Positions 3,189-25,959 of a DNA stretch of 64,000 nucleotides are shown here, in pieces. Source of the DNA: Actinomycetes bacterium (GTDB lineage: Bacteria > Actinomycetota > Acidimicrobiia > Acidimicrobiales > Microtrichaceae); assembly GCA_024222295.1 (NCBI GenBank), contig JAAEPF010000023.1, forward strand, positions 248,001 to 312,000, in the 5' to 3' direction. Numbering within the stretch: position 1 is the stretch's first letter; the number at the start of each line of letters is the position of its first letter. A program made the translations under genes and the position numbers. The notes under the pieces are model-generated. The model searched no databases. It worked only from the letters and a program-made list of their open reading frames with translations, and was not told where the DNA came from.

Positions 3189-4739
3189 ATGGAACACCCC
3201 ATCCGCGAACGCGTGGAAGACCTCGCGAACCGCGTCGAGCAAGCCATGACCCCTGGATCGGAGCGTTCGATCCAGCGCCAGCACGAGCGCGGCAAGATGC
3301 TCGCCCGCGAGCGGATCGAGTACCTGCTCGACGACGGGTCGTTCCACGAACTCGACATGCTGGCCCGCACCCGCTCGGGCGACGCACTTCCCGAACAGCC
3401 CTACGGCGACGGTGTGATCACGGGCTGGGGCACCATCGATGGCCGCAAGGTGTTCGTGTTCTCCCAGGACTTCACCGTGTTCGGCGGGGCCCTCGGTGAG
3501 GTGTTCGCGGAGAAGATCCACAAGCTGATGGACCTCGGCCTCAAGGTCGGAGCCCCGGTCATCGGTCTCAACGACGGCGCCGGTGCCCGCATCCAGGAAG
3601 GCGTGGTCTCGCTCGCGTCCTACGGAGGCATCTTCTACCGCAACGTGAAGGCGTCGGGTGTCACGCCGCAGATCTCGGTGATCATGGGCCCATGCGCCGG
3701 CGGCGCCGTGTACAGCCCGGTGATGACCGACTTCATCTTCATGGTCGATGAGACCTCCTACATGTTCATCACCGGCCCGGACGTGGTGAAGCAGGTGACC
3801 GGTGAAGAGGTCAGCCAGCAGGACCTGGGTGGCGCGCGCGTCCACACCGGCACCTCCGGTGTGGCCCAGTTCATCAGCTCCAACGACGAGAGCTGCCTCG
3901 ACGACGTCAAGTACCTGCTTTCGTTCCTGCCGTCGAACAACCTCGAGGAAGCGCCCATCGAGCCCACTGCGGACCCGATCGACCGCCGGTGCGAGGAGAT
4001 CTACGACCTGATCCCCGATTCGCCCAACCAGCCCTACGACATGCGCGAGATCATCAAGGCTGTTGCCGATGACGGCGACTTCTTCGAGTACGCCCCCAAC
4101 TGGGCCGGTTCGATCACGTGTGGCTTCATCCGCCTCAATGGCCAGAGCATCGGCGTGGTCGGCAACCAGCCCGCCATGTACGCCGGAGTGCTTGACATCG
4201 AGTCGTCCGCCAAGGGCGCCCGCTTCGTTCGTACGTGCGACTCATTCAACATCCCACTGGTCACCTTCGTGGACGTGCCGGGGTTCCTGCCCGGCGTCGA
4301 CCAGGAACACGGCGGCATCATCCGCCACGGCGCCAAGCTGCTCTACGCCTACTGCGAGGCCACGGTGCCCCGCATCTCGGTGATCACGCGCAAGGCATAC
4401 GGCGGCGCCTACGTGGTCATGGACTCCAAGTCGATCGGCTCCGACCTCGCCTACGCGTTCCCTTCCGCCGAGTTGGCCGTGATGGGCGCCCAGGGCGCAG
4501 TCGAGATCGTGCACCGACGCGCGCTCCAGGATGCCGAGGACCCCGAGGCGCTGCGCGCCGAGTTCGTCGAGGAGTACGAAGAGGAGCACCTCAACCCGTG
4601 GGAGGCCACCAACCGTGGCTACATCGATGCGGTGATCGACCCCGCCGAGCTGCGCCACAAGCTGGTGGCCGGCATGGATCTGTTGCGCACGAAGCGCGAG
4701 GAACTCCCCAACCGCAAGCACGGGAACATCCCGCTGTGA
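3189..4739 (+). CDS. pccB: Acyl-CoA (propionyl-CoA) carboxylase beta subunit, carboxyltransferase
   Basis: 516 residues with both crotonase-like halves of a biotin-dependent carboxyltransferase. The N-terminus matches PccB/AccD proteins (SERSIQRQHERGKMLARERI). The first oxyanion-hole region is MGPCAGGAVYSPV and the second is RKAYGGAYVVM, which bind acyl-CoA and carboxybiotin. It moves CO2 from biotin to propionyl-CoA or a related acyl-CoA. A GTG two codons upstream (3183) is an alternative start, and a purine-rich AGGAGGGGGG lies about 20 nt further up. The epsilon subunit gene overlaps its stop codon. No biotin carboxylase alpha subunit is encoded in the window. Confidence 0.92.
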   Translation: MEHPIRERVEDLANRVEQAMTPGSERSIQRQHERGKMLARERIEYLLDDGSFHELDMLARTRSGDALPEQPYGDGVITGWGTIDGRKVFVFSQDFTVFGGALGEVFAEKIHKLMDLGLKVGAPVIGLNDGAGARIQEGVVSLASYGGIFYRNVKASGVTPQISVIMGPCAGGAVYSPVMTDFIFMVDETSYMFITGPDVVKQVTGEEVSQQDLGGARVHTGTSGVAQFISSNDESCLDDVKYLLSFLPSNNLEEAPIEPTADPIDRRCEEIYDLIPDSPNQPYDMREIIKAVADDGDFFEYAPNWAGSITCGFIRLNGQSIGVVGNQPAMYAGVLDIESSAKGARFVRTCDSFNIPLVTFVDVPGFLPGVDQEHGGIIRHGAKLLYAYCEATVPRISVITRKAYGGAYVVMDSKSIGSDLAYAFPSAELAVMGAQGAVEIVHRRALQDAEDPEALRAEFVEEYEEEHLNPWEATNRGYIDAVIDPAELRHKLVAGMDLLRTKREELPNRKHGNIPL

Positions 4740-19718: not shown

Positions 19719-21107
19719 ATGACCGCTCATCCATACGCCGACCGCTTCGAAGTCATGCGGGCCATTCCCGCCGAGGGGCGAGACGAGTCTGCGATCCTCG
19801 CCGAGCTGGCCGAGATGGCGACCGAAGAGGACGCCTTCTGGGAGACCGGCAAGTGTTCCGGCACCATGTACTGCGGCGACCACGACCACTACGACTTCAT
19901 GCAGCAGGCGTTCGGCAAGTTCGCCCACATGAACACGCTGCAGCGCGACATGTGCCCGAGCGCGACGCGATTCGAGGGCGAGATCATCGCCATGACCCTC
20001 GCTCTGATGCACGGCGAGGCCGTCCGGGGCACCGAGCCGGTCGGCCTGGTCACCAGCGGTGGCTCCGGCTCGATTGCTCATGCCGTGCTCGCCTACCGCG
20101 ACCGGGCCCAGCAGGAGAGCGGCGTCATGGAGCCCAACTTCGTGAAGCCGGAGACGGGGCACCCGGCGTTCGACAAGGCGTGCCACCTGTTCGGCGTGGA
20201 GTTGCGCACTGTGCCGGTGGACCCGGACACGACCAAGGTCGACCCCGACGTGATGGCCGAGGCGATCGACGACAACACCGTCGCGATCATGGGTTCCGCC
20301 TGCAACTACGGCTACGGCACCATCGATCCGATCGGCGAGCTGAGCGACCTGGCGCTCGAGCGCGGCGTTGGCCTGCACGTGGACGGCTGCCTCGGCGGGT
20401 TCATCCTGCCGTGGGGCGAGAAGCTCGGCTTCGACATCCCGGCGTTCGACTTCCGCCACCCCGGAGTCACCACGATCAGTGCGGACACCCACAAGTACGC
20501 CTACGGCTTCAAGGGCACCTCTGTGCTGTTGTTCCGCGACAAGGCGCTGCGCAACTCGCAGTACTTCTACCTCGAGGACTGGACGGGCGGTAAGTACTGC
20601 TCGCCGGGCATGGACGGATCGCGCTCCAACGGCCTCATCGCCGCCACTTGGGCCGGCATGGTGCGCCTCGGTGAGAAGGGTTACCTCGACTACGCCAAGG
20701 CGATCTTCGAGACCGCATACGCGATGCAGGCCATCGTTCGGAGCTATCCGGAGCTACACGTGATCGGCGATCCGAGCTTCTGCTTCAGCTTCACTTCCGA
20801 CGAGTTCGACATCTACCACGTGAACGATTTCATGCGTCAGCGTGGTTGGCGCTTCAACGGCCAGCAGTACCCCAACGCGATCCACATGGCCGTCACTCGT
20901 CCGCAGACCCAGCCCGGGGTGGTGGACACCTTTGCGGCGGACCTCGCAGAGGCAGTGCCGTATGCGAAGCAGCACGCTGATGAGCAACCCGCGAGCGGCG
21001 CCATCTACGGCGGGGTCGAAGGCGGCATGAACGAGGAAGCGGGCGTGTTCATCCGCTCGATCATGGAGGACCTCATGGACTCCCAGCAGGAGCTGCCCGA
21101 TGGCTGA
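19719..21107 (+). CDS. PLP-dependent lyase/decarboxylase resembling sphingosine-1-phosphate lyase
   Basis: 462 residues. It belongs to the group II decarboxylase/SPL branch of fold-type I PLP enzymes. LVTSGGSGSIAHAVLAYRDR marks the phosphate-binding start, GSACNYGYGTIDPI the pocket loop, HVDGCLGGFILPW the Asp222 that pairs with pyridine N, and SADTHKYAYGFKGTSVLLF the Schiff-base lysine (K259 in THKYAYG). These match S1P lyases more than glutamate decarboxylases. The reaction is probably retro-aldol cleavage of a phosphorylated amino alcohol, or an amino-acid decarboxylation. It follows an FGGY kinase, which could supply a phosphorylated substrate; that is inference. Confidence 0.8.
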   Translation: MTAHPYADRFEVMRAIPAEGRDESAILAELAEMATEEDAFWETGKCSGTMYCGDHDHYDFMQQAFGKFAHMNTLQRDMCPSATRFEGEIIAMTLALMHGEAVRGTEPVGLVTSGGSGSIAHAVLAYRDRAQQESGVMEPNFVKPETGHPAFDKACHLFGVELRTVPVDPDTTKVDPDVMAEAIDDNTVAIMGSACNYGYGTIDPIGELSDLALERGVGLHVDGCLGGFILPWGEKLGFDIPAFDFRHPGVTTISADTHKYAYGFKGTSVLLFRDKALRNSQYFYLEDWTGGKYCSPGMDGSRSNGLIAATWAGMVRLGEKGYLDYAKAIFETAYAMQAIVRSYPELHVIGDPSFCFSFTSDEFDIYHVNDFMRQRGWRFNGQQYPNAIHMAVTRPQTQPGVVDTFAADLAEAVPYAKQHADEQPASGAIYGGVEGGMNEEAGVFIRSIMEDLMDSQQELPDG

Positions 21108-21268: not shown

Positions 21269-21667
21269 GTGGCCCATCCGCAGATGTTCGATGACGACGA
21301 CCCCGTGCTGGTGCAGGTTCGCGAGACCGCCCTCGCCATGCCCGGCGCCGATGAGAAGGTCTCCCATGGTCGTCCGGCCTTCTTCACGAAGAAGGTGTTC
21401 GCCTACTACGGCGGATCGGTGAAGGTGGACGGTGAGTACGAACAGCACCCACATTGCATCGTTGTGCTGGCCGAGGCCGATGAGCGGCGTGCGCTGCTGG
21501 AACTCGACGCCGTCTACGAGCCGGCGTATCTCGCTCCGTCGGGTTGGATCGGCTTCGACATCGACGACTCGACCGACTGGTCAGAGGTCGCCGAGCTGCT
21601 GGATGCTTCCTACCGCCTGACCGCTCCGAGGAAGCTCGTGGCCGAGTTGGACGACGGTCCTGATTGA
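21269..21667 (+). CDS. YjbR/MmcQ family protein
   Basis: 132 residues from GTG 21269. Conserved features include ETALAMPGADEKVSHGRPAFF, the FAYYGG strand and a late LDASYRLTAPRKLVAEL helix, all typical of the MmcQ/YjbR double-wing fold. The fold resembles DNA-binding CyaY-like domains, but no molecular role is established. It starts just after the DUF1801 remnant, and the two families are often neighbours in actinobacteria (general knowledge, not shown here). Confidence 0.78.
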   Translation: MAHPQMFDDDDPVLVQVRETALAMPGADEKVSHGRPAFFTKKVFAYYGGSVKVDGEYEQHPHCIVVLAEADERRALLELDAVYEPAYLAPSGWIGFDIDDSTDWSEVAELLDASYRLTAPRKLVAELDDGPD

Positions 21668-21707: not shown

Positions 21708-21753
21708 AGCGGGTGGCGGGAATGGAACCCGCGTCGTCAGCTTGGCAAGCCGA
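21708..21753 (-). repeat. tRNA-Gly 3'-half remnant (GCC-type anticodon arm)
   Basis: 46 nt that align with 24973-25018 of the intact tRNA-Gly gene at 40 of 46 positions. The anticodon loop would read TTGCCAA (anticodon GCC) and the T-loop has lost a conserved base (TTCCATT). The 5' half of a tRNA is absent, so it is not a functional tRNA. It is the most diverged of the three copies and the farthest from the intact gene. Confidence 0.75.
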
Positions 21754-21834
21754 AGGTTGTGCAACGGCGATGTCGAGTGCCGTGCCGGTCGTGTTGGGCC
21801 AGGCGGCAGGGCTCGGTGAACGGGTTTGTCGTCG

Positions 21835-22860
21835 TCATGGCAGCGTCCAGATGACCGTGGTGACCAGCCAACCCAGAGTGGCGACACACGCCACGACCCC
21901 GACGATGAGGGCCCACCCTCGCAGGTACAGGGCCCGTTCTTCGCGCCGGTCGCAGCGGGTCCATTTCCCGAGCTGGGGATTCACGACATACGGCATCGTG
22001 AGGAACGTCATCACGACGACTGCGGACACGTTTGTCAACAGCAGGCGTTCCCAAAGGGCAAGGTCCGCGGGGAGCACCACGCCGAGCACCACCGACAGCA
22101 CCAGCACGGTCGGGTACAACCCGAGCACGATCGACGCCGCAGTGCGTGTCCGGCTCGGTCGCGCCTCGGACGCGTCGTCGGATTGGTCGCTGTCGGACCC
22201 CTCGAACCAGGAGCCGAACGAGCTGTCGATTCGTCGTACGACGGGCGTGCCGAATCGGCGTCCATCGGCTCGTAGGTCGGCCCATGCCGAGGACTGCAAC
22301 CAGGCCTCCATGGCAGTGGCACTCCCGTAACGGAACACGGCAGTCCATTCGAGCTGCACGCCGGGTACAGGCCGGAACAGCTCCGAGCCGCGGAACTCAT
22401 CGTCGTCTCGTTGCGCCTGAAGGACTCTGTCGTACCAGGCGAGGAAGTCATCGGTGAGGGCAGCTTCCACGGGGTAGTCGATCACGAGGGTCGCGAGCGG
22501 AGCCGGATGCTCGGCCCCCGGGGCGGTGATCACCCTCTGGCTCGCAGGGCCGGCCGCCATTGCCGAGACGTCCTCCAGCATGGTCTGGCGCCGGGGCGAA
22601 TCCATCCAGGCCCGCAGGTTCGCGATGGTGTCGAAGCGGAACAGGCCGGTCCATTCGCCACCCTCCTCAGATGGGGGAATGCTCCGTGCCTCGCGGCAGC
22701 CCGACGCGTTGGCAGCGTCTGCCACGAGTCCCTCCGCCCACCCTGCGAAGTCCTTCTCGCTGCCGGCTCGGACCGGGCGGCCGGCGATGAGTGTCACCTC
22801 GGACACAGCCGCGTCCGGTCCCGCGTCGCCTTGGGTCGTGCCGTCTGGCATAGAGGACAT
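21835..22860 (-). CDS. Antibiotic biosynthesis monooxygenase (ABM)-domain membrane protein
   Basis: 341 residues from ATG 22858-22860, which has a perfect AGGAGGT ribosome site 10 nt upstream. The N-terminal two-thirds hold two dimeric alpha/beta-barrel (ABM-like) units, roughly residues 20-100 (EKDFAGWAEGLVADA) and 120-200 (DFLAWYDRVLQAQRDD). The C-terminal third has three transmembrane helices (VLGLYPTVLVLSVVLGVVLP, LLLTNVSAVVVMTFLTM and WALIVGVVACVATLGWLV). Such proteins are annotated as monooxygenases but their substrates are unknown. It is the only gene in the cassette between two tRNA-Gly fragments. Confidence 0.75.
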   Translation of the reverse strand: MSSMPDGTTQGDAGPDAAVSEVTLIAGRPVRAGSEKDFAGWAEGLVADAANASGCREARSIPPSEEGGEWTGLFRFDTIANLRAWMDSPRRQTMLEDVSAMAAGPASQRVITAPGAEHPAPLATLVIDYPVEAALTDDFLAWYDRVLQAQRDDDEFRGSELFRPVPGVQLEWTAVFRYGSATAMEAWLQSSAWADLRADGRRFGTPVVRRIDSSFGSWFEGSDSDQSDDASEARPSRTRTAASIVLGLYPTVLVLSVVLGVVLPADLALWERLLLTNVSAVVVMTFLTMPYVVNPQLGKWTRCDRREERALYLRGWALIVGVVACVATLGWLVTTVIWTLP

Positions 22861-23245
22861 CGATGCACCGACCTCCTGGATCCGGGTGGCTCGCGTGGTC
22901 AACCAACTGTATGACGACGACGTTGTGATTCCGACGCCCCGGAGCCTCCCGCCGGTCGACGAACCGGCCCATGGCGGCGAGACAGTCGAACTGACGCTCG
23001 CGTGCCAAGAGGTCCACCTCGTTCGCGTCCACACCTGGAGGAGCCCGCAGGCGGTGATGTAGTTCGCGCCGCTCACGAACCCCTGAATCCCGAGGATCTT
23101 CTGACGACCACAACACCGCAACCGAGTTCTCGTCCAGCCGTCAGATTGCCAGACTTCTGACTACCAGCCGCCAGTCACTGCCGCCGCTTGCCCGCATGAC
23201 TTGCGAAGCAGTTTCCTACTGCGACACCCCTCGCGAACAGCGGTG
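22861..23245. other. Gene-free stretch upstream of the ABM-domain gene
   Basis: About 385 bp between the ABM gene start and the tRNA-Gly remnant at 23246. I see only the AGGAGGT ribosome site (about 22871-22877) and a short inverted repeat (GACACC/GGTGTC near 23224-23248). Open frames here continue from neighbours and resemble no family. It may hold decayed element DNA. Confidence 0.4.
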
Positions 23246-23294
23246 TCTGAGAGAGCGGGTGACGGGAATCGAACCCGCGATATCAGCTTGGGAA
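23246..23294 (-). repeat. tRNA-Gly(CCC) 3'-half remnant
   Basis: 49 nt identical to 24965-25013 at 48 positions; the match includes 8 nt beyond the 3' end of the tRNA and stops inside the anticodon stem. The 2TM gene ends 10 nt to the right. Interpreted as a leftover attachment half-site. Confidence 0.8.
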
Positions 23295-23304
23295 TCCCCC
23301 GGGG

Positions 23305-23583
23305 TCAGACGGGCCCCTCCCGGCCCTCGCTGCGGTTCATCTCGGCCTGCACGTCGGCCTCGGTGATCGGCTTCGAGCCGTACGTGTTCCACGCCATGAA
23401 GGCCATTCCGATTCCCCACCCGAGGGTCACCCAGACCGGCCACGGATAGCCGGCGCCGGTGACGGCCCAGATGATCCAGAGGAACGCGTTGATGATGACG
23501 TAGGAGACTGCGACGGTCTTGAACGCCCGCTTGGCCTTGAGGCTCTCGAGGGCCTGGTCCCGCGATGTGATTGGTCCGCTCAT
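23305..23583 (-). CDS. 2TM domain-containing small membrane protein
   Basis: 92 residues from ATG 23581-23583. A charged helix (DQALESLKAKRAFKTVAVSY) leads into two transmembrane helices (VIINAFLWIIWAVTG and WPVWVTLGWGIGMAFMAW), with a charged tail. This matches the 2TM domain family, in which the hairpin is often attached to histidine kinases but also occurs alone. The function is unknown. It is the only gene in a 470-bp cassette bounded by tRNA-Gly fragments. Confidence 0.78.
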   Translation of the reverse strand: MSGPITSRDQALESLKAKRAFKTVAVSYVIINAFLWIIWAVTGAGYPWPVWVTLGWGIGMAFMAWNTYGSKPITEADVQAEMNRSEGREGPV

Positions 23584-23762
23584 GGATCCGACGGTATTCG
23601 AGTTCGGTTCGACTCACAACTAGTTCTGAGGTCGACCGGTTGCGCCGTCCACAAGACTCACAGCCGTGGCACCGACCCACTTGCCTTCCCAGCTCAACTC
23701 CCCGACCGAAACGGGCGTCTGGGCAGACTTGGCTACCAAGAGCTGAGATCCCGTTACTGGCC

Positions 23763-23820
23763 GGGATCTGATCGAGCGGGTGACGGGAATCGAACCCGCG
23801 TTATCAGCTTGGGAAGCTGA
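23763..23820 (-). repeat. tRNA-Gly(CCC) 3'-half remnant, nearest copy
   Basis: 58 nt identical to 24961-25018 at 56 positions, including 12 nt downstream of the tRNA 3' end. It breaks off after the anticodon stem, so the D-arm and acceptor 5' strand are missing. The first bases (GGGATCT) also pair with AGATCCC at 23746-23752 to form a 7-bp hairpin. Confidence 0.8.
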
Positions 23821-23998
23821 TGGTGCGAAGCCGTCCTGTTCGGCCGGGAGGTCGTCGACCCTGTGGTGCCTGGTCTCTGGCCGGTGCCGCTGACGAATGT
23901 GCACTTCTGGTGTTACGGGGGACTGCGGGCCGATCGGAGCGGGCGCGTTGACGTCCGTGCGGCCAGCTGCGAGGGTCGCCCAGACCACGGAGGCACAC

Positions 23999-24823
23999 AT
24001 GACCACTTCCCGCACGATCGATGGACTGACCGTCTGCGTCACCGGCGCCTCTAGCGGCATCGGGCGCAGCATCGCAAGACACCTCGGGTCACTCGGCGCC
24101 CATGTGTTCCTGATGGGCCGAACCGCCGAGCCGATGGAGCAGACCGCGGAGGAGATCGCCGCCGCAGGCGGCCGGGCGGACGTGTCCGTGTTCGACGTCA
24201 CCGACTCGGCGGCATTGCAGGAGTGGATCTCCGGCGCGGCCGATGCGACGGGTCGTCTGGACGTGATGGTGAACAACGCCGGGTTCGGTGACGTGGGTTC
24301 CACGATTGCCGATGGAGACGTCGAGATGTGGCGCTCGATGCTCGAGGTGAACGTGCTCGCCCTCGCCGTCGGCTGCCAGGCCGCGATCCGGACCATGCGC
24401 GACGGGGGAGGCGAGGGGAACATCATCAACATCTCCTCGGTGGCTGCGCTGCGCCGCGAGTCGGGCTTCTACGGCGCCACCAAGCACGCCGTGAACTGCA
24501 TCAACTCGTCGCTGCGCCTCGAGCTCCAGGAGGAACCCATCCGGGTGACCTCGATCCTTCCCGGCGTGTTCGCCACGAACTTCACCCGCAACGTGGACCG
24601 CAGTCTTGTCGAGGGGATGGCCGCAATGGCCGGGGTCGAGGAGATCGAGTTCGACGACGAGGGCCGGGTCCCCGAGGACCAGATCGACGACCTCCAGAAG
24701 GGCATGAAGGCCATGGTCGGCAATGTCGAGTACATCGCGCAGGCCGTCGAGTACGTGATCTCCCAGCCGATCGAGCTCAACATCGAGGAGCTCGTGATCC
24801 GCCCGCAGAAGACCATGTTCTAG
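23999..24823 (+). CDS. Short-chain dehydrogenase/reductase
   Basis: 274 residues from ATG 23999, chosen because GGAGG lies 6-7 nt upstream; the frame extends further 5' but without family sequence. The cofactor motif is VTGASSGIGRSIARHLG, followed by NNAG (VMVNNAGFGDVG), the catalytic Ser in INISSVAALR and the YxxxK pair in FYGATKHAVN. Arg in FLMGRTAEP after the second strand suggests a preference for NADP(H). The substrate is unknown. The gene occupies the cassette next to the intact tRNA-Gly. Confidence 0.85.
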   Translation: MTTSRTIDGLTVCVTGASSGIGRSIARHLGSLGAHVFLMGRTAEPMEQTAEEIAAAGGRADVSVFDVTDSAALQEWISGAADATGRLDVMVNNAGFGDVGSTIADGDVEMWRSMLEVNVLALAVGCQAAIRTMRDGGGEGNIINISSVAALRRESGFYGATKHAVNCINSSLRLELQEEPIRVTSILPGVFATNFTRNVDRSLVEGMAAMAGVEEIEFDDEGRVPEDQIDDLQKGMKAMVGNVEYIAQAVEYVISQPIELNIEELVIRPQKTMF

Positions 24824-24972
24824 GGATGCGCATCGAGCCGACCCGTTCGATGGAGCCGATCCACGGCAACGTGGAGCAGGCTCCACGCTTCCCGCGGACC
24901 GCCCGTAACGCGATCAGGGCCAGCTGAGGGCCCTCGGAGGCCGCATCCCGCGCCAGTGTTGGGATCTGAGAG

Positions 24973-25043
24973 AGCGGGTGACGGGAATCGAACCCGCGTT
25001 ATCAGCTTGGGAAGCTGAAGTTCTGCCATTGAACTACACCCGC
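24973..25043 (-). tRNA. tRNA-Gly (anticodon CCC)
   Basis: A 71-nt cloverleaf on the minus strand. Acceptor strands GCGGGTG and CACCCGC pair fully, with discriminator T. The D-stem is GTTC/GAAC, the anticodon loop is TTCCCAA and the T-arm contains GGTTCGATTCC. CCA is not encoded. It is the only complete copy of the sequence repeated at 21708, 23246 and 23763. Confidence 0.93.
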
Positions 25044-25392: not shown

Positions 25393-25959
25393 GTGATCCT
25401 GAGCGATGCCACCATCCGAACCGAGATCGGCGAAGGCCGAATCGTCGTCGACCCTTTCGACGACGCCATGGTGCAGCCCAGTTCGATCGACGTCCGCCTC
25501 GATCCGCGGTTCCTGGTGTTCCGCAACCACACCCGGGCGATCATCGACGTCAAGGAAGACCTCAGTGACCTCACCGAGCCGGTGGAGGCCAACGAGAAGG
25601 AGCCTTTCATCCTCCACCCGGGTGAATTCGTGCTCGGCGCCACCGCCGAGCGTTTCGCCCTGCCCGATGACATTGTCGGCCGCGTCGAGGGCAAGAGCTC
25701 GCTCGGTCGGTTGGGACTGCTGATCCACACGACAGCCGGGTTCGTCGACGCGGGCTTCGAGGGCCAGCTCACACTCGAGCTCTCCAATGTGGCGACCCTG
25801 CCGATCACCCTCTACCCGGGGATGAAGATCGGCCAGCTCAGCTTCCTGCGGATGGACCGCCCCGCCGAAGTCCCCTACGGCGCCGACTCACTCGGCTCCA
25901 AGTACCGCGGCCAGGTCGGACCGACACCCAGCCAGTACTGGAAGAACTTCGACCAGTAG
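25393..25959 (+). CDS. dcd: dCTP deaminase (probably dUMP-forming)
   Basis: 188 residues from GTG 25393, the normal Dcd length. Conserved features are [54 protein letters not shown] with the catalytic region, [17 protein letters not shown] and the C-terminal [13 protein letters not shown]. The enzyme deaminates dCTP; mycobacterial homologues go straight to dUMP, and the close similarity of these motifs suggests the same here. It supplies dUMP for thymidylate synthesis. The upstream in-frame extension to 25120 is not family sequence. Confidence 0.92.

Follow-up and report, generated by a model that had tools for sequence, protein, structure and literature searches.

The window analysed here is a 64,000-nucleotide stretch of DNA from a bacterium of the order Acidimicrobiales (assembly GCA_024222295.1, contig JAAEPF010000023.1, positions 248,001 to 312,000), in which three direct repeats of the 3′ half of a tRNA-Gly(CCC) gene, together with the intact gene itself, bound three one-gene cassettes. 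This array is probably a stack of integrase-less remnants resembling cis-mobilizable elements (CIMEs), left by repeated site-specific integration, with the newest remnant adjoining the tRNA. The contig that contains the window is 425 kb long and comes from a draft genome (G000) of 3.76 Mb with 97% completeness. The stack, read outward from the tRNA gene, is composed as follows.

24972 to 25043, minus strand: intact tRNA-Gly(CCC) gene (ARAGORN), putative attachment site, with its 3′ end at 24972
23821 to 24971, no strand: cassette 1, between the intact tRNA and copy 1; missing from the close relative G001
23999 to 24823, plus strand: short-chain dehydrogenase/reductase (SDR; Pfam adh_short), intact cargo of cassette 1, 274 aa
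23763 to 23820, minus strand: copy 1, displaced 3′ half; tRNA positions 26–72 (47/47) and 11 bases beyond (9/11), in total 56/58
23295 to 23773, no strand: cassette 2, between copies 1 and 2
23305 to 23583, minus strand: 2TM-domain protein (Pfam 2TM), cargo of cassette 2, 92 aa
23246 to 23294, minus strand: copy 2; tRNA positions 31–72 (41/42) and 7 bases beyond (7/7), in total 48/49
21763 to 23252, no strand: cassette 3, between copies 2 and 3
21835 to 22851, minus strand: ABM-domain protein with a C-terminal membrane part (Pfam ABM), cargo of cassette 3, about 338 aa
21707 to 21762, minus strand: copy 3, outermost; tRNA positions about 18–72, 48/56 with one gap, CCC-derived with the anticodon mutated to GCC

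The 46-nucleotide half matches at 46, 46, 42 and 40 of 46 positions at the intact gene and copies 1, 2 and 3, respectively, the chance level being 29/46 (best match in 100 mononucleotide-shuffled windows). All three copies have the orientation of the intact gene, and no repeat of its 5′ half was found in the window. These results reproduce exactly the common orientation and the counts reported in an earlier note made from the letters alone (56/58, 48/49 and, for the core of copy 3 at 21708–21753, 40/46), and the single gene that the note had assigned to each interval was confirmed by Pfam. The note had also described copy 3 as GCC-type. A GCC loop is indeed present, but copy 3 is nearer to the CCC gene than to the GCC gene of the genome, so that the loop is a single C-to-G substitution in a CCC copy that has decayed; its homology reaches, weakly, tRNA position 18. 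Bases past the tRNA 3′ end are shared with the intact gene by two copies, as noted earlier (copy 2, 7/7, TCTCAGA; copy 1, 9/11), and by copy 3 not at all. ARAGORN reports copy 1 as a tRNA gene, and the 5′ part of copy 1 is unrelated sequence. A check of the genome assembly for further copies of the half found only the paralogous tRNA-Gly genes. The repeat-to-repeat periods of cassettes 1, 2 and 3 are 1,198, 521 and 1,546 bp. Mismatches rise from copy 1 to copy 3 (0, 1, 6), which, with three points only, fits the outward push suggested in the note, the farthest copy being the most diverged.

Half-tRNA repeats of the same kind were found in ten other genomes (G040, G035, G037, G024, G002, G058, G081, G394, G266 and G238). 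There and in G000 the repeats start at tRNA position 23–31 (about 18 for copy 3) and end at the 3′ end of the gene. Copy 2 starts exactly at the anticodon loop, and the copy in G081 diverges within it. A crossover at or next to the anticodon loop is consistent with tyrosine integrases acting at tRNA genes. The Islander summary of tyrosine integrases at tRNA genes agrees with an anticodon-loop crossover (PMC4383910).

The tRNA-Gly(CCC) gene beside dcd is common to many relatives. The chromosomal genes that frame the site in the window are the following.

25411 to 25959, plus strand: dcd (dCTP deaminase), the conserved gene that flanks the tRNA at its 5′ end
21269 to 21667, plus strand: YjbR-domain gene, past the outermost copy; 71% in G001, at the same place
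19719 to 21107, plus strand: pyridoxal phosphate (PLP)-dependent decarboxylase family gene; 82% in G001, in the same order

In G001 the order is FGGY kinase, PLP decarboxylase, YjbR, tRNA-Gly, dcd and FeS protein, without the three cassettes, and no homologue of the SDR or the ABM protein was found in the whole G001 genome at the thresholds used. Two members of the genus of G001 carry other elements at the site: G016 has one repeat-bounded interval, which is 15.4 kb long and includes a tyrosine integrase, and in G024 three elements, of 7.3, 4.1 and 11.9 kb, stand in tandem. The SDR was found, patchily, in 15/298 genomes of the order (E 1e-30 or better), its nearest homologue (69% identity; dN 0.24, dS 0.97) being in G237, a member of another family, where a tRNA-Ala lies near the gene but no repeats occur. 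The ABM protein was found in 11/298 genomes of the order and is absent from every other member of the family tested. Since G001 lacks the cassettes, G016 and G024 hold other elements and the SDR and ABM genes are scattered, the site is polymorphic for presence and absence, with patchy cargo. The earlier note had named an identical order of genes and fragments in all relatives as the result that would speak against insertion; that order is not shared.

Tyrosine integrases lie within the intervals or directly adjoin tRNA-Gly(CCC) in G058, G035, G024, G045 and G016. They and two integrases that adjoin tRNA-Gly(UCC) belong to a single family (identity about 37–48%), which few of the other integrases of the same genomes match. 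A profile of the family detected members in 106/298 genomes (E 1e-50); an intact tRNA-Gly(CCC) lies at most 1.5 kb from 14 of the 30 best family loci, and several others are near a different tRNA. In 18 repeat-bounded intervals at tRNA-Gly(CCC), which were picked for giving matches, so that the fractions are not population estimates, the integrase was intact in four (G016, the first of G024, G035 and G058), broken in three (G002, G266 and G144) and not found in 11 (three in G000, two each in G024 and G394, and one each in G040, G037, G081 and G238); the intervals of G394, G266, G238 and G144 were scanned with the family profile only. The clearest broken integrase, that of G002, is 88% identical to that of G024 over 257 residues, after which about 60 residues are missing and the frame changes. 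Repeated insertion next to the tRNA, as proposed in the note, is thus supported by G001 without the cassettes, by the elements of G016 and G024 and by the integrases found across the order. At least one element, that of G058, looks mobilisable because it also encodes a TrwC relaxase. Phages probably use the site too, since an 82.7 kb phage contig of IMG/VR carries the half tRNA without its 5′ part.

A GGTCA box was observed at a fixed spacing, 13–15 bases past the 3′ end of the intact tRNA-Gly(CCC), in relatives (e.g. L322, L324, L316, L083 and L314). The box is commoner where a family integrase adjoins the tRNA (11/19 vs 9/37, Fisher p 0.019) and, because of this enrichment, is a candidate integrase arm site. 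It was not found in the cassettes of the window.

The absence of a recombinase from the intervals, stated in the earlier note, was borne out, as the window region gave no match to PF00589 and the intervals none to the integrase profile. No member of the tRNA-Gly integrase family was detected in the G000 assembly with the family profile, and no serine recombinase was found in G000. PF00589 matches three of its proteins, one XerC-like, one XerD-like and one, beside IS21 genes, XerA-like. Contig C62 of G000 (L114), 4.4 kb long, carries IS21 istA/istB and a XerA-like tyrosine recombinase that is partial at the contig end; as a possible helper this protein was rejected, being XerA-like, beside istAB and outside the tRNA-Gly family. 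A tblastn match (E 0.006) considered as an integrase remnant in the window was likewise set aside, as it overlaps copy 1 and is unconvincing, and the profile search gives nothing. The note had offered decay to cargo or an enzyme encoded elsewhere as explanations. Decay is favoured over mobilisation in trans because sister intervals hold broken integrases and G000 lacks a tRNA-targeting integrase; the helper has no counterpart in the assembly.

In the mechanism proposed, tRNA-Gly(CCC) beside dcd would be a recurrent attachment site, across the order, for elements of a dedicated tyrosine-integrase family, and recombination would take place in or next to the anticodon loop. Each arriving element would supply its own anticodon-arm-to-3′-end half, by which the whole tRNA would be rebuilt and the old half displaced outward. 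Half replacement and outward displacement are seen in the repeat anatomy of the window and of its relatives. The window would record at least three serial integrations, whose intervals lost, or never had, an integrase and retain one intact cargo gene each, and the SDR interval next to the tRNA would be the newest. We infer that the three intervals were once part of integrase-bearing elements, arrived in this order and are now immobile.

Four observations weigh against such remnants. No integrase vestige was found in any of the three intervals by Pfam and integrase-profile search, so that decay is not directly seen here. The cargo genes of all three cassettes are intact. The intervals are small (0.5–1.5 kb), and with copy 1 still at 47/47 there can have been little time in which to lose all but one gene. 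Lastly, the G001 site is empty of the three cassettes, not pristine: between YjbR and the tRNA it holds another gene, of 218 codons, for a membrane protein.

Other tRNA genes of G000 were surveyed by a tRNA covariance-model search and by examination of the regions mostly downstream of nearly all tRNA genes. Three further intervals with a downstream 3′-half copy and without an integrase were found.

L193:11807-15885: tRNA-Thr(TGT) interval, 4.0 kb, holding a C-terminal fragment of TypA/BipA
L202:743-1836: tRNA-Val(CAC) interval, 1.0 kb, one gene
L203:11868-13355: tRNA-Thr(CGT) interval, 1.4 kb, one gene

The assembly, without a tRNA-targeting integrase, thus has six half-tRNA intervals in total. 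A second, decayed tRNA-Met-like copy was also seen 2.4 kb downstream of tRNA-Met (L205:971-1047 and 3430-3502); it is nearly whole, a near-identical hairpin sequence follows each, and it seems to be a product of gene duplication followed by decay rather than an attachment half.

A rather unlikely alternative is that the intervals are minimal one-gene cassettes which have always lacked an integrase and whose insertion and excision are carried out in trans by the integrases of visiting elements, in the manner of miniature inverted-repeat transposable elements or integrase-less integron arrays. Several independent intervals that hold one gene or are very small, and whose repeats are perfect or nearly so, would suit it (cassette 1 of the window, 47/47; a 1.12 kb interval of G394 with one HepT gene, 47/47; and G037, with nothing between its repeats), as would the one-gene Val(CAC) and Thr(CGT) intervals of G000, the intact cargo and the small size of the intervals. 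The three cassettes of the window also have a common left flank (TCTCAGA, or GATCAGATCCC), which copy 3 lacks, and an integrase-bearing and an integrase-less element of G024 have, by eye, about 30 bp of right end in common. However, G000 has no family integrase, only XerC-like, XerD-like and IS21-linked partial recombinases, broken integrases lie inside the same half-site intervals elsewhere, and no cassette was seen twice, neither across genomes nor at two sites. The cassette ends are tRNA-Gly halves and not folding attC sites, which separates the array from integron cassette arrays known as clusters of attC sites lacking integron-integrases (CALINs). In a broader form, which we regard as unlikely, a pool of recombinase-less one-gene cassettes would be loaded in trans into tRNA genes (Gly-CCC, Thr-TGT, Thr-CGT and Val-CAC) by integrases of a tRNA-targeting family that passing elements carry; if so, tRNA 3′ ends would be integron-like landing arrays in these bacteria.

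Plain duplication, tandem or segmental, of a piece of the tRNA gene with no recombinase involved would account for direct repeats near their source gene but is very improbable, as every copy in G000 and the ten other genomes runs from the anticodon arm to the 3′ end, the flanks are not duplicated and the intervals carry unrelated, patchily distributed genes. It is equally hard to credit that the halves are what is left of genuine tRNA genes, although copy 3 over its length reaches 21.6 bits with the tRNA model, or terminators or processing signals between neighbouring genes, although inverted repeats follow copies 1 and 2, since the break point is identical in relatives and integrases adjoin it; the hairpins were rejected as terminators, the sequences after the copies being no more stably folded than stretches taken at random from the window.

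Hotspot cargo in relatives (L083, L092, L084, L120, L312 and L315) was observed to be rich in defence and toxin-antitoxin families (GmrSD, NA37, DUF433/DUF5615, Schlafen AlbA_2, HepT, and PIN with Phd/YefM). On the other side of the gene, a 5′-half copy lies upstream of the intact tRNA of G238 (L314:2986-3013; tRNA positions 1–28, 89%), which looks as though an element had entered at the 5′ side, and in genus g2 a gene of about 1,493 codons, absent from the window, separates dcd from the tRNA 5′ end (L090:11125-15603 and L089:1648-6135). Three records titled as a Bifidobacterium breve metagenome-assembled genome (L257, L267 and L289) encode an Acidimicrobiia PLP decarboxylase (66–69% identity), and their titles are probably wrong.

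The type of phenomenon is already known. In the CIME accretion model an element integrates, decays to a CIME and is followed by another that enters the attachment site (PMC5704250). The window resembles this in having intervals at a tRNA 3′ end bounded by attL-/attR-like repeats (three direct half repeats and the intact gene), without integration or transfer genes inside by Pfam and integrase-profile search, in tandem through repeated integration and with integrase-bearing relatives at the site (PMC5704250); it differs in that the array has no functional integrative and conjugative or integrative and mobilizable element and its intervals are of 0.5–1.5 kb with one gene each, and the likeness is drawn from sequence. 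The ssrA-specific islands of Dehalococcoides, 15/31 of which have no integration module, are also tandem intervals bounded by 3′-end repeats of one RNA gene (PMC3146451), but they are larger and involve a serine recombinase and the tmRNA T-loop, whereas the window involves a tyrosine integrase family and the tRNA anticodon loop. The additive flexible island of Methylophilaceae (330 bp–42 kb, 1–63 genes) is similarly marked by tRNA 3′-end repeats (PMC10872708); there the last 20 bp of tRNA-Lys are repeated and the integrase family is unassigned, whereas the repeat of the window is 42–56 bp and extends to the anticodon arm. As in the tDNA islands of Islander, a whole tRNA gene and a displaced fragment stand at the ends, but Islander requires an integrase gene inside, which the intervals of the window lack (PMC4383910). 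Tycheposons, as quoted in PMC10872708, also carry cargo at tRNA genes but are 4–200 kb long with a tyrosine recombinase; by that description the window, with its periods of 1,198, 521 and 1,546 bp and no recombinase, falls outside them. What is distinctive here is the regular stack of three unusually small one-gene intervals together with the integrase family behind the hotspot.

The analysis identifies a dedicated tyrosine-integrase family and its hotspot at tRNA-Gly(CCC) across an actinobacterial order that is little studied and for the most part uncultured; in relatives the cargo of the hotspot includes restriction and toxin-antitoxin genes. It makes visible a gradation that leads from elements with an integrase, by way of broken integrases, to remnants of one gene, and indicates that island searches demanding an internal integrase overlook such intervals despite their acquired genes.

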